Assembly (NCBI GenBank): GCA_030147705.1
Contig: JASBUV010000068.1
Location: 1-33,001 of the forward strand
DNA length: 33,001 nt
Source of the DNA: Gammaproteobacteria bacterium
GTDB lineage: Bacteria > Pseudomonadota > Gammaproteobacteria > Pseudomonadales > Pseudohongiellaceae
Direction: 5' to 3'
Shown here one piece after another: positions 14,277 through 20,979 of the stretch. Numbering within the stretch: position 1 is the first letter of the stretch; every line of letters starts with the position of its first letter. The position numbers and the translations under genes are program-made. The notes beneath the pieces are model-generated. The model saw only the letters and a program-made list of their open reading frames with translations, was not told the origin of the DNA and made no database searches.

Positions 14277-14483
14277 TTGACACACCTACAGGATAAAAAA
14301 ACAGTAGTTGGACAAGATTCCAATCTACCAGACAACCAGATCGAGGTCACTCCTGAGATGATTCGGGTTGGTGTGGCGACCTTTCACAACTTCGATCCCA
14401 AGTTTTATACGTGGGAGGAAATTGTGGCGAAGGTCTACGAATCTATGGCTCGGGGGGAAGAGATAACTTCTTCCCCTTCTTGA
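14277..14483 (+). CDS. Small hypothetical protein, possibly a fragment (start uncertain, no good ATG)
   Basis: NQIEVTPEMIRVGVATFHNFDPKFYTWEEIVAKVYESMARGE resembles the 'ITPEMIxAG...FDP...EEIVxxVYxAM' small hypothetical proteins; only a TTG (14277) is available upstream once the Lhr overlap is excluded. Confidence 0.35.
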   Translation: MTHLQDKKTVVGQDSNLPDNQIEVTPEMIRVGVATFHNFDPKFYTWEEIVAKVYESMARGEEITSSPS

Positions 14484-14988
14484 TTTGCCACTTACAAGAA
14501 CTGATATGAGAAGCAATTCCGGATATAAAGAATGCCCACCTAAACTGTAGGTCAATATCTGGGTCCCGGGGTGGGAATTGTTTGAACATGCTGGCAAACC
14601 CTTCTTTGCCATCATATTTTGCCAACTCTTTAGGCCAGAACCTTAGATCAAAGAGTTCTGATTTTATGTGTTTATTCTCAAACTGAGCTTCATTGGCCCA
14701 ATGGGCGCACATGTTGCGAACTTTGCAGACTATTAAAATGTCATGAAGATCGTCTTTGTTGATTATTCCCATCGTATAGGCAAGCTTTGCCTTATTAGCT
14801 GTAGCCCCGATTGGGCCGGAGGGTTTAAAGAGTTCTCTAAGGATGCCAGAATCTTGAATCAGGCATATTTGAAGCGCTCCAGTCAGGGCGTCGTCAATTA
14901 TCGCAGCGCCCACTATGGCGGAGGCGCGATCTGATTCAGAATATAACTCGTGCCTAAAGAATTCATCCATTGACCTAAGTTCACTCAT
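14443..14988 (-). CDS. MltR-like (mannitol operon repressor family) protein
   Basis: MSELRSMDEFFRHELYSESDRASAIVGAAIIDDALTGALQICL...LFKPSGPIGATANKAKLAYTMGIINKDDLHDILIVCKVRNMCAH matches the MltR layout (DRxAAIVxAxxLDxxL, GPLxxFxxKIxLAYxxGLI, IRKIRNxxAH). ATG 14988 has GGAG 6 nt upstream. Confidence 0.68.
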   Translation of the reverse strand: MSELRSMDEFFRHELYSESDRASAIVGAAIIDDALTGALQICLIQDSGILRELFKPSGPIGATANKAKLAYTMGIINKDDLHDILIVCKVRNMCAHWANEAQFENKHIKSELFDLRFWPKELAKYDGKEGFASMFKQFPPRDPDIDLQFRWAFFISGIASHISSCKWQIKKGKKLSLPPEP

Positions 14989-15106
14989 GACAGACTCCAC
15001 AGACAAAGAAGAGAAAAAACCTGACCCAGACGATGTACTCCGTCGAATGCTAAACACACCGCCCAAAAAAGATAAGAAAGAAAAGAAGAAAAAGGACGAT
15101 AAGTAG
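14987..15106 (+). CDS. Small lysine-rich protein (39 aa)
   Basis: MTDSTDKEEKKPDPDDVLRRMLNTPPKKDKKEKKKKDDK; the DPDDVLxRMLNTPP motif looks protein-like, but no clear RBS. Confidence 0.42.
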   Translation: MTDSTDKEEKKPDPDDVLRRMLNTPPKKDKKEKKKKDDK

Positions 15107-15500: not shown

Positions 15501-16727
15501 GGCTTGCATGTGCACCCCTGCACTTATGCCTTCAGGAATTAAGGTTGGTCTACCTCCCATCCGGCACGAGTGTTCTTGCAGTATACGCCCTAATCTTCAA
15601 ACCACGAAATAAGGGTGTTCTCAAATCGCTTTTTAAGGTGTTTTGCTGACTTCTCAGTCTTGTAAGCCTTGTTGTTGACCAATCGGATTATAGGTCAGAC
15701 GCTTCCCTGAGATTTGTTTCAGAGCTATATCAGCTCTCTCAGAGTCGTCATAACCGTTAGCTGTCCTGTGGTTGTATCGGAAGTCGAATTCCGAGAGGTA
15801 ACGGGATAGGTGGCGTTCCTTGCAGTGCTGGTAGGTTCCTTTCATGCCGCGCTTAAACACTGAATAGTAGTTTTCCACTGTGTTGGTGTGCAGCAAGGGA
15901 TTGTCCTTGCGTACATACTCGCCAGCAGCGTGGTTAACGATGTGATGCTGTGCGAACTTGGGACCGATTGAGCGATACACTGAGGCACCGTCAGTCATTA
16001 ACTGGGCGTCTCGGGCTACGTTCTCACGGATGATAGGCATTAAGGTTTTAACGTCTACCTTGTCCACATGAATTGATCGCACTTGCTTGGTGTCACGGTC
16101 TACCAGAGACAGGACTTTACGCTTCTGCTTGGAGTAGGGAGCGCCGATTTTGCCTCTTGCAAGGTCTTTACGGGGCTTGGCATCGACCTTGCCCATGTAG
16201 GTTTCATCGACTTCTACCATTCCGCCACCAGAGCCGAAGGGAGACGAGGACTCGTCTTTCATCGCTTCACGGATGCGGTGGCACATGAACCACGCTGTTT
16301 TGTAGGTAACTCCTACAGTTCGGTGGATCTGATGGGCTGAGATGCCCTTCTTTGAAGAACACATGAGATAGGTTGCCATTAACCACTTGTTGAGAGGCAC
16401 CCTTGATCGCTCGAATACTGTACCGACTGTCACAGTGAACTGCTTGCGGCATTCGTACTCTTTGCACTTATACAGACCCACTCTAGCCCCTTTGATGGGC
16501 CAGGCTCCGGTTGAATCACAGTGAGGACACACGGGGCCTTCGGGCCAGCGCAATTCCTCTAAGTATTCTCTCGCTTTGTCTGCGTCTTGAAACTGGGGCT
16601 GTGTTAGATTGCACATATCGTTCACCTTTTGTACGATGTGCTAACTGTATACATTCCCAGTGGGTTTGTAAAGTATATAATTATCACGGACATACAGGTT
16701 AGGTGAGCTTGCGGTGCTTTGCAAGTC
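15501..16727 (-). mobile_element. IS1595-family insertion sequence (boundaries tentative)
   Basis: Transposase plus weak putative terminal inverted repeats: GGCTTGCATGTGCACC at 15501 versus reverse complement of 16713-16727 (GACTTGCAAAGCACC). No 8-bp target duplication seen at these ends. Confidence 0.4.
15654..16625 (-). CDS. IS1595-family transposase
   Basis: LRWPEGPVCPHCDSTGAWPIKGARVGLYKCKEYECRKQFTVTVGTVFERSRVPLNKWLMATYLMCSSKKGISAHQIHRTVGVTYKTAWFMCHRIREAM...VEVDETYMG...NTVENYYSVFKRGMKGTYQHCKERHLSRYLSEFDFRYNHR; Zn-ribbon plus DDE-type core of IS1595/ISXO2. Confidence 0.93.
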   Translation of the reverse strand: MNDMCNLTQPQFQDADKAREYLEELRWPEGPVCPHCDSTGAWPIKGARVGLYKCKEYECRKQFTVTVGTVFERSRVPLNKWLMATYLMCSSKKGISAHQIHRTVGVTYKTAWFMCHRIREAMKDESSSPFGSGGGMVEVDETYMGKVDAKPRKDLARGKIGAPYSKQKRKVLSLVDRDTKQVRSIHVDKVDVKTLMPIIRENVARDAQLMTDGASVYRSIGPKFAQHHIVNHAAGEYVRKDNPLLHTNTVENYYSVFKRGMKGTYQHCKERHLSRYLSEFDFRYNHRTANGYDDSERADIALKQISGKRLTYNPIGQQQGLQD

Positions 16728-16959: not shown

Positions 16960-17652
16960 ATGAATTCTCTACCTACCAGCCTCGGCAAGCGCATCACATC
17001 AGCCCTCTCTCGCTTTTGGAAGGACAACAGACAGTTCTTCTTCCTGCTGTGCTGCATTGTATTCTTCAAAAGTGCCATTGCCGACCTGAGCTCGATCTCC
17101 GGTGCCTCCATGCAGCCCACGCTTCTGGATGGCGACAAGGTCTGGGTCAACAAACTGGCCTATGATGTGAAGATCCCTTTCACCGAGATTTCTCTCGCCG
17201 AACTTGCCGATCCGGAACGCGGCGACATCGTGATTATTGATTCAAGTCGGGCGGGCAAGCGGCTGGTCAAGCGCATCGTTGGTTTGCCAGGCGATACGAT
17301 CTACATGCAGAACAATGCACTGGTTATTAATGGCCGCGCTGCCAATTATGAAGTGCTCGATAGCGACGACGATGCATTAATCATCCTCGAAGAACTGCCT
17401 GACCATCCGCATCAGGCGCAGGTGTCTCGTGGCTTTATCAATCGCTCCAATCGCTCCTATGGGCCAACTATTGTCCCGGATGATCAGTATTTCGTGCTCG
17501 GCGACAACCGCGATAACTCCGCCGACAGCCGCGTCTACAGCTTTATCCCCCGAGAGGAAATTATCGGACGTTCGAGTTCGGTGATTTTCTCATTGGACAG
17601 CGATAACAGCTACCTGCCTCGTGGCGAACGGTTTCTTGCAGATATCGAATAA
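16960..17652 (+). CDS. lepB: Signal peptidase I (S26 family)
   Basis: ISGASMQPTLLDGDKVWVNKLAYD (catalytic Ser box), RGDIVIIDSSRAGKRLVKRIVGLPGD (Lys box), YFVLGDNRDNSADSRVYSFIPREEIIGRSS. Confidence 0.92.
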   Translation: MNSLPTSLGKRITSALSRFWKDNRQFFFLLCCIVFFKSAIADLSSISGASMQPTLLDGDKVWVNKLAYDVKIPFTEISLAELADPERGDIVIIDSSRAGKRLVKRIVGLPGDTIYMQNNALVINGRAANYEVLDSDDDALIILEELPDHPHQAQVSRGFINRSNRSYGPTIVPDDQYFVLGDNRDNSADSRVYSFIPREEIIGRSSSVIFSLDSDNSYLPRGERFLADIE

Positions 17653-17780
17653 GTTTTCTGCAAGTTTTTCTGATGCACTCTGAAAGAATTCCCGGAGTGC
17701 TCCGGTTAATGTAGGTGGCAAGTGCCCAAGCAATGTGGGCCTGCTGTACTTGCTCAAATCGAACCCAAAGAGTCATAGCT

Positions 17781-18380
17781 ATGCAAAAACGAAAAATTGG
17801 CAGCCAACCATCTGGTTTGCTCGCTGGATTGCTGATGGTTGTGGGATTGCTCTTCACACCATTGCTTACCGCACAGGAATTCGTGTGGGCACCGGAATTT
17901 CCTGTCGGTGCCGAGATCGCAGAGATTTCTGCCCAGGACCAGGATGGAGAACTGCGCGAGTTCGCTGACCTTGTTGGCGAAAATGGCATGCTGTTCATGC
18001 TCAGTCGCTCCTTCGACTGGTGACCCTTCTGTACTGCTCAGCTCGTGCAGCTGATAGATCTCACAGAACAGTTTGAAGCAATCGGCGTCAGCATTGTGGC
18101 CATGACGTACGATCCCGTGGATTTCCTCAAGGAAGTTGAGCTGGATCGAGGCGTGGAATTCACTCTGCTAAATGACGAGGCCATCACCCACGTCAATCGG
18201 CTGGGCATTCTCAATACTGACTATGCACCGGATTCACGGGCCTATGGTGTGCCCTATCCCGGAATCTTCCTGATCGATACCGACGGTGTGATTCGCTACA
18301 AGTTCGCCGAGGAAAGCTATCGCGACCGCCCGGATTTCGCGAACGTGCTTGAAGCGGCGACAGAAATGGCCGGGCAATAA
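17781..18380 (+). CDS. Putative exported redoxin-like selenoprotein; Sec encoded by in-frame TGA at 18021-18023 (codon 81), motif W-U-P-F-C
   Basis: MQKRKIGSQPSGLLAGLLMVVGLLFTPLLTAQEF (signal peptide)...GMLFMLSRSFDW[TGA]PFCTAQLVQLIDLTEQFEAIGVSIVAMTYDPVDFLKEVELDRGVEFTLLNDEAITHVNRLGILN...RAYGVPYPGIFLIDTDGVIRYKFAEESYRDRPDFANVLEAA. Same frame both sides of one TGA; AhpC/TSA-like redoxin features span the junction. Confidence 0.86.
18029..18066 (+). promoter_or_regulatory. Putative bacterial SECIS stem-loop
   Basis: Core stem TCAGCT (18038-18043), loop CGTGC (18044-18048), AGCTGA (18049-18054); lower stem CTGT (18029-18032)/ACAG (18063-18066). Apical loop begins after 20 nt from the TGA and has G as its second nucleotide, within the general bSECIS model. 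Confidence 0.7.
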
Positions 18381-18753: not shown

Positions 18754-20979
18754 ATGAATACTCTTGCCCGTTGTGCCCGCTTCTTCCTGCTCGTTCTGAC
18801 TCTGTTGCCTGCGCTGACCTATGCGCAGCTCTCCACCTACGATGTCCCTCGCATCAACAGCGAGCCTGTGATTGATGGCAATGTCGATGACGCTGAGTGG
18901 GCGGCAGCGACGCGGGTCCCCGTCAACATCGAATTTGCACCGGGCGATTCCATTCCGGCACCGGTGAATGCAACTGGTCTGCTCATGGAAGACGGTGAAG
19001 TGCTTTATATTGCCTTCATCGCCGAAGATCCGGACCCGGACCAGATTCGCGCGTACTACAGCGATCGCGATTCCTTGTGGGATGACGATTACGTGGAAGT
19101 GGTACTGGACACCTTCAATGATGAGCGGCGCGCCTACCAGTTCTATGTGAACCCACTCGGTATTCAGGCAGACTCCATTCAGGACGACCTCAACAACCGG
19201 GAAGACGGATCCTGGAATGCGATCTGGGACAGTGCTGGCCAGATCACCGAAAACGGCTACATGGTCGAAATGGCCATCCCATTCAAGCAGCTCCGCTTCA
19301 CAACTTCCGATACGGATCAGCAATGGGGCCTCGACCTGATCAGACACTATCCGCGCAATCGCGAACATCGAATTTCCATCGCCGGTCGTGATCGGGATGT
19401 GTCCTGCTATCTCTGTCAGATCAGCAAGGCCGAAGGTTTTGCTGATCTGGAGCGAAGCCGCAATCTGGAGGTGATACCCACTATCACGGCGACCTCAATC
19501 CAGACCCGCGACCCCTATGCGAACACGGGTTGGCAAAGCGATGACATAGACCCTGATGGCGGCATCGACGTACGTTGGGGTATTAATCAGGACCTCTATT
19601 TGAATGCGACCATCAATCCGGATTTTTCACAGGTCGAAGCGGACAGTGCCCAACTGGATATCAACAACACCTTCAGCCTTTATTTCCCGGAACGCCGCAC
19701 GTTTTTCCTGGATGGCGCCGACTACTTCAATAGTGCACAGAATATTGTGCACACCCGGAACATCGCTGACCCAAGTTACGGAGCGAAACTGACCGGCAAG
19801 AGTGGCGACCATTCCTTTGGCTTGCTCTCCGCGCGCGATGAGACCACCAGCTTTCTGATGCCTGGCAATCTCAGCTCCAGACTGGCTGCCCTGCCCGATC
19901 TGGAAAGCGATGTGAGTATTGCGCGTTATCGCTATGACGTGTTCGAGAACTCCAGTATCGGCGCTCTCGTCACGGATCGCCGCGGCGACGGTTACAGCAA
20001 TACGGTGACCAGCCTCGATGCAGTGCTGCGCCCTACCGCATCCGATGTCTTCACCATTCAAACCATGCGCTCCAGCAGCGATTATCCGAACGAGATCCAA
20101 AACCGCTTCAGTCAGGCAGCCCACCTCAGCGACAGTTATCACTATCTCGACTATCGCCACAATGACCGGCGCTGGGACGTGTGGATAGCCTATACCGATG
20201 TTGGCGCTGATTTCCGAGCGGACCTGGGGTTTATCTCGCGCGTGGATTACGACTACTTCGTAACCCGGGTCGGACACAGCTGGCGCAACGATGGTGAAAA
20301 TTTCTTCTCACGCATCCGGGTCGCGCTCGATTACGACATCACACACGATCAGAGTGGATTCGAGCTGGAAGAAGAATTTGAAGTCTTTCTGAACATGAAT
20401 GGCCCGATGCAGTCACGTATTGATGGCCTGTTCGGTGGCAGCAAAACCTACTGGAATGGCCAATACTTCGATGAGCAGTTCAATCAACTGAGTTTGAACT
20501 TCTCGCCCTCGCCGGGTCTTGAGCTTGGCATGATGGTGCGCGTTGAAGATGTGGTCGATTTCGCGAATACGCGGCTTGGGCGCTCAGTGCGCGTAGGCCC
20601 CGAGATTGGCTGGCAGCTTGGTCGTCATATCGAGATCGATGTCGAGTTCCAGCATCAGAACTTCGATGTGGATGGTGGCAGACTGTTCACTGCCAAACTC
20701 ACTGACGCGGAATTTACCTATCAGTTCAACGCGCGGAGCTTTCTCCGTTTCACCGCACAGTACATCGACAACGATCGCAACCCCGATTTATATGTGCGTC
20801 CGGTGCAGAGTCGCAACCGTGAACTGACCACCCAGCTGCTATACAGCTACAAGGTGAATGCCGCAACGCGCTTCTTCGTTGGCTATTCGGACGCCGGCTT
20901 TCAGGATGACGCATTCGAGTCTATCGAGCAGACCAGTCGCGCCTTCTTCGCCAAGTTCTCCTACGCCTGGCAGCCCTGA
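18754..20979 (+). CDS. Exported CBM9-like sugar-binding / DUF5916 domain protein
   Basis: Signal peptide; PVIDGNVDDAEWAAATRV...LYIAFIAEDPDPDQIRAYYSDRDSLWDDDYVEVVLDTFNDERRAYQFYVNPLGIQADS...YMVEMAIPFKQLRF (CBM9-like) followed by a beta-rich region FPERRTFFLDGADYF... typical of DUF5916. Confidence 0.86.
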   Translation: MNTLARCARFFLLVLTLLPALTYAQLSTYDVPRINSEPVIDGNVDDAEWAAATRVPVNIEFAPGDSIPAPVNATGLLMEDGEVLYIAFIAEDPDPDQIRAYYSDRDSLWDDDYVEVVLDTFNDERRAYQFYVNPLGIQADSIQDDLNNREDGSWNAIWDSAGQITENGYMVEMAIPFKQLRFTTSDTDQQWGLDLIRHYPRNREHRISIAGRDRDVSCYLCQISKAEGFADLERSRNLEVIPTITATSIQTRDPYANTGWQSDDIDPDGGIDVRWGINQDLYLNATINPDFSQVEADSAQLDINNTFSLYFPERRTFFLDGADYFNSAQNIVHTRNIADPSYGAKLTGKSGDHSFGLLSARDETTSFLMPGNLSSRLAALPDLESDVSIARYRYDVFENSSIGALVTDRRGDGYSNTVTSLDAVLRPTASDVFTIQTMRSSSDYPNEIQNRFSQAAHLSDSYHYLDYRHNDRRWDVWIAYTDVGADFRADLGFISRVDYDYFVTRVGHSWRNDGENFFSRIRVALDYDITHDQSGFELEEEFEVFLNMNGPMQSRIDGLFGGSKTYWNGQYFDEQFNQLSLNFSPSPGLELGMMVRVEDVVDFANTRLGRSVRVGPEIGWQLGRHIEIDVEFQHQNFDVDGGRLFTAKLTDAEFTYQFNARSFLRFTAQYIDNDRNPDLYVRPVQSRNRELTTQLLYSYKVNAATRFFVGYSDAGFQDDAFESIEQTSRAFFAKFSYAWQP

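Follow-up and report, generated by a model that had tools for sequence, protein, structure and literature searches.

The analysed window, a stretch of 33,001 nt, comes from the MAG of a marine gammaproteobacterium that is 78% complete, and carries on its forward strand a redoxin gene (17781..18380, +) which codes for 199 amino acids when the in-frame TGA at codon 81 (18021..18023, +) is translated as selenocysteine (Sec, U) and the TAA at 18378-18380 is taken as the stop. This TGA is the only one inside the frame. In the translated protein it lies in the context ...LSRSFDW-U-PFC-TAQLVQL..., giving the motif W-U-P-F-C, and the second redox residue of this UxxC motif, Cys84, is encoded at 18030..18032 (+) and is invariant in both family alignments. 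An ORF listing by standard rules returned the gene in two pieces, 17715..18023 and 18045..18380, just as the original prediction had expected of automated callers. The fused protein matched the Pfam family AhpC-TSA (PF00578) over residues 42-173 (E 8.6e-21), a match that spans the UGA and, with 74.6 bits, passed the gathering score of 26. Thus, the two frames proved to be one gene interrupted by a TGA, and the assignment of its product to the redoxins of the AhpC/TSA fold family, both as originally predicted, was confirmed. In a search of the fused protein against the NCBIfam profiles, no model scored above its cut-off; the nearest one was that of the SelL-related redox protein NF040769, with 41.2 bits (cut-off 120) for the Sec form and 44.6 bits for a Cys form.

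By inspection, the N-terminus of the protein (approximately codons 1-32, 17781..17876, +) is a signal-like segment in which a hydrophobic stretch is followed by A-Q, and A31-Q32 is nearly invariant among the orthologues. From this segment, which the orthologues have in common, we infer that the redoxin is exported to the periplasm, in agreement with the earlier proposal. Towards the C-terminus, P-Y-P-G at codons 158-161 (18252..18263, +), with P158, P160 and G161 invariant, is proposed to form the cis-Pro loop of a thioredoxin (Trx) fold. A scan for promoters and terminators gave matches at chance level only.

The gene is flanked by conserved neighbours. A signal peptidase I (Peptidase_S26) gene lies directly upstream (16960..17652, +) and is a neighbour in 54 loci, a gene for a CBM9/DUF5916 protein lies downstream (18754..20979, +) and is a neighbour in 45 loci, and a large helicase gene recurs in 49 loci. 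Between the helicase and the signal peptidase genes (window:14443-16625, -), the window contains a transposase-like ORF (15654-16625), of the IS1595 type by eye, and an ORF of 207 amino acids (14443-15066). Since no homologue of either was found near the orthologous loci, a recent insertion of both ORFs is likely.

Orthologues covering the active site were present in 25 of 36 relatives from the same genus, all 25 with TGA at the same codon, far more than chance would give; another genome of the genus (G030) contained a C-terminal piece of the orthologue only. In a separate scan of records with one genome per species, which shares some species with the genus set, we collected 80 loci from Pseudohongiella, OM182 and other Gammaproteobacteria. 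Codon 81 was TGA in 61 and TGC or TGT in 18 of the 79 scored loci, and the 80th locus, L118, also has Cys at the site and reads RSFAWCPYC. The homologues thus carry Cys or UGA at exactly the codon at which the original prediction had placed the redox residue. In the tree, 18 of the 19 Cys forms fall into one supported clade (99/94), with L124 standing apart, and the distant outgroups L043-L045 carry TGA, so that one or two switches suffice to explain the distribution. Most simply, if not provably, these switches would have gone from Sec to Cys. The dN/dS ratio was approximately 0.1 on either side of the UGA, which shows that the downstream part of the gene is not decaying, as had been supposed from the appearance of the C-terminal half.

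Downstream of the UGA, at 18038..18054 (+), the transcript can form the hairpin U-CAGCU-CGUGC-AGCUG-A, which is identified as a bacterial SECIS element by covariation, frozen wobble positions, folding and agreement with the published bSECIS model (PMC13188914). This model describes a loop of 3-9 nt with a G in the first two positions, a stem of 4-16 bp, a distance of 16-37 nt from the UGA and a minimum free energy (MFE) of <= -7.5 kcal/mol (PMC13188914). The hairpin at the locus has a 5 nt loop (CGUGC) with G at position 2, a stem of 5-6 bp and an apical loop (18044-18048, containing G-U) at a spacing of 20 nt after the UGA, and the MFE of the 50 nt downstream of the UGA was -12 kcal/mol, within the threshold. 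Taken as a single sequence, this 50-nt fold has no unusual stability (z -0.9), and the case for a SECIS element is therefore a comparative one. Two of the stem pairs showed compensatory changes (G-C to A-U and C-G to U-A), 99.2% of the cells were paired, and the observed covariation score was reached by no shuffle. RNAalifold returned the same hairpin together with a sixth pair with further compensation. At the nucleotide level, the codons CAG CTC GTG CAG CTG were nearly without synonymous variation in the 61 TGA forms, with entropies of 0-0.36 bits compared to a mean of 1.38 bits for 37 other conserved codons (p = 2e-4). In the 18 Cys forms, the same codons vary freely, the hairpin is lost, and Val-Gln has mostly given way to other residues. 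The RNA element appears to constrain the protein sequence. The SECIS-like element for which a search downstream of the UGA had been suggested is thus present as a conserved and covarying hairpin.

The genes for incorporation of Sec, a search for which had been proposed with the original prediction, were all found in the window's genome above the respective cut-offs: selA with 579 bits, selB with 398 bits, the tRNA-Sec (selC) with 64 bits and the anticodon UCA, and selD. The latter (L013:1333-3780, -) is of the Cys form and, judged from its sequence only, has an N-terminal NADH-dehydrogenase-like domain; such Ndh-SelD fusions are known from ocean samples (PMC2398784). Among the genomes tested by locus, selA was detected in 11/11 with a TGA form compared to 6/19 with a Cys form (Fisher p = 3e-4, relatedness uncorrected). 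Within the genus set (G000-G036), 31 of the 33 genomes with a match to either the orthologue or a longer TGA paralogue had selA, and three of the four without any redoxin match also lacked selA (p = 0.005, relatedness uncorrected). The two TGA-form genomes without a selA match, G005 and G017, are 79% and 92% complete, respectively, and their missing selA is probably due to incomplete assembly. The Cys-form genomes that still have selA (L099, L106, L107, L110, L111 and L116) have probably retained the decoding of Sec for use in other proteins.

A lone TGA in one incomplete MAG could as well be a nonsense mutation or a misread TGC or TGT, but the same TGA is carried by 61 species-level records from different assemblies, the constraint on the protein continues beyond it, and synonymous freezing and covariation set in just after it. 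Independent genomes of other species therefore rule out a pseudogene or a sequencing error in practice, and we regard both as extremely improbable; the pseudogene had already been called unlikely in the original prediction. A changed genetic code, in which UGA stands for Trp or Gly, or a general readthrough of stops would likewise make UGA a sense codon in the redoxin gene. Against this, the homologues have Cys rather than Trp or Gly at the site, UGA terminates 4 of 61 orthologous genes of the clade, and the genome encodes tRNA-Sec(UCA) together with selA, selB and selD, on which grounds we reject this explanation as scarcely credible. The remaining way of retaining UGA as a stop, namely two separate short genes at 17715..18023 and 18045..18380, follows the ORF listing to the letter, but splits a single Pfam domain and an orthologous gene that is uninterrupted in its Cys forms; in addition, the GTG at 18045, the start of the second gene, is also the codon in the hairpin loop. 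Two genes were thus discarded as well, with a probability close to nil. Taken together, the 61 TGA orthologues, the SECIS element, the dN/dS ratios and the conserved gene order make sequencing error, pseudogene and changed code very unlikely. Of the refuting conditions named with the original prediction, none held among those that could be examined. With the Sec machinery, the Cys and UGA homologues and the conserved hairpin all in agreement with a UGA at the first redox position of W-U-P-F-C, the gene almost certainly codes for a selenoprotein, and the product is very probably an exported redoxin of the peroxiredoxin (Prx)-like UxxC kind.

The function of this selenoprotein is less evident from its family, in which U/C81, C84, W80 and P160 are invariant. 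The AlphaFold2 model was confident (pLDDT 88.6) with a Trx/Prx fold, and the nearest solved structures were BCP/PrxQ-type peroxiredoxins. In a profile alignment against true peroxiredoxins, C84 fell on the peroxidatic Cys, U81 on the conserved Thr and P160 on the conserved Arg. The conserved Thr and Arg of peroxiredoxins are catalytic. The protein could act mainly as a peroxidase, with Sec81 or a Cys at the peroxidatic position reducing periplasmic peroxides, and the membership in the AhpC-TSA family, the kinship with BCP/PrxQ folds and the position of C84 are in favour of this. However, the replacement of Thr by U/C81 and of Arg by P160 is invariant through the family, which hence lacks the canonical peroxiredoxin motif PxxxT/SxxC/U and the catalytic Arg, and the window's genome encodes a separate Sec-peroxiredoxin (L127) with FTGG-U and the Arg. 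We therefore consider a peroxidase an unlikely but not a negligible alternative. The U/CxxC motif that defines Prx-like thiol:disulfide oxidoreductases is present. Judged from alignment and structural model, the family combines a fold of the Prx type with a redox site that resembles that of thioredoxins. Since the Thr and Arg characteristic of peroxiredoxins proper are missing, the most fitting reading of the protein is a periplasmic thiol-disulfide oxidoreductase of the Prx-like UxxC kind, a role that we favour with some reservation. L127 itself (G000:C217:6225-6542, -) is a second selenoprotein of the genome, a canonical exported Sec-peroxiredoxin which reads ...FFPKAFTGG-U-TMQC..., in which Sec occupies the peroxidatic position and the Arg is found as well.

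As a thiol-disulfide oxidoreductase, the redoxin would work as follows. The genome encodes SelB and tRNA-Sec(UCA) for decoding the UGA at codon 81, the conserved hairpin downstream is placed to direct this, and selection has kept the full AhpC/TSA-fold protein of 199 residues. In the periplasm, Sec81 would attack a disulfide (or peroxide) substrate, Cys84 would resolve the intermediate to give a Sec81-Cys84 selenenylsulfide, and re-reduction of the latter would fall to the DsbD pathway or to a periplasmic thioredoxin. The protein would thus function either as a thiol-disulfide oxidoreductase or as a repair reductase, and not as a classical peroxiredoxin. Many relatives contain a TGA paralogue of approximately 380-400 amino acids (e.g. 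L044:1384-2523, +, and L045:787-1938, -), in which an AhpC-TSA domain with W-U-P-Y-C is followed by a C-terminal DsbD_N-like domain, and the SECIS hairpin of this paralogue lines up with its counterpart in the redoxin family and covaries with it. The window's genome also encodes a DsbD-type membrane protein. This protein and the DsbD_N fusion of the paralogues suggest DsbD as the electron donor of the redoxin, an assignment that we put forward tentatively.

Among known systems, the family shares the Prx-like fold with the SelL-related NF040769, its nearest NCBIfam model, but scores far below the 120-bit cut-off and has UxxC. The motif of SelL is UxxU. Sec-peroxiredoxins (TxxU, PF00578), of which L127 is a probable member, belong to the same superfamily, but have Sec at the second, peroxidatic position, preceded by Thr, and the catalytic Arg; in the redoxin, Sec takes the first position of the motif, and neither the Thr nor the Arg is there. 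ResA/TlpA/DsbE proteins are likewise exported with a WCxxC-type site and a proposed cis-Pro, and ResA was among the weaker matches; however, no such NCBIfam model was above its cut-off for the redoxin, whose fold is nearer to BCP/PrxQ. The closest likeness is to selenoproteins listed as 'Prx-like thiol:disulfide oxidoreductase' in 2006 (PMC1794560), represented as Prx-like 1 (PF00578, UxxC) by 225 Sec members in the 2008 GOS ocean survey (PMC2398784) and listed again as PF00578 UxxC/UxxU selenoproteins in a 2026 review (PMC13188914). They have in common with the redoxin the AhpC/TSA domain, the UxxC, the Cys homologues and a bacterial SECIS directly after the UGA (PMC1794560, PMC2398784, PMC13188914). 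The claim of an exported selenoprotein redoxin largely holds, with the qualification that its kind was already published. Compared to this published kind, whose type example is WP_010940744.1, the redoxin set is exported, has W-U-P-[FY]-C and lies beside signal peptidase I in the Pseudohongiella/OM182 lineage. In the papers searched, we found no mention of Pseudohongiella with selenocysteine or of OM182 with a selenoprotein. The set is apparently an unnamed subfamily of a known selenoprotein kind, widespread in the Pseudohongiella/OM182 lineage.

The splitting of the gene by ORF calling, together with the lack of an NCBIfam model, means that this conserved redox protein of marine Gammaproteobacteria (Pseudohongiella/OM182) probably escapes annotation, or is annotated in pieces, in many cases. 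The matched Sec and Cys orthologues in conserved synteny lend themselves as a clean natural experiment, both on the reasons for which Sec is retained or lost and on the way in which a SECIS element constrains a protein sequence. As a speculation to which we give rather little weight, the exported Sec redoxins of this aerobic marine lineage may make up a large clade without a name. The SECIS hairpin would dictate their residues Leu-Val-Gln after the site, a constraint from which the Cys clade is free; with the DsbD_N-fused TGA paralogue, such redoxins could form a dedicated selenium-based periplasmic reductase relay.

Two minor observations were made besides. The redoxin of L119, whose record is titled as a Klebsiella pneumoniae MAG, groups with freshwater gammaproteobacterial MAGs (L115), and the title is probably a mislabel. 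Elsewhere in the window, at window:930-2093 (-), lies a gene for a sulfite dehydrogenase-like molybdoprotein (SorA/SoxC family), which scored below the NCBIfam cut-offs.
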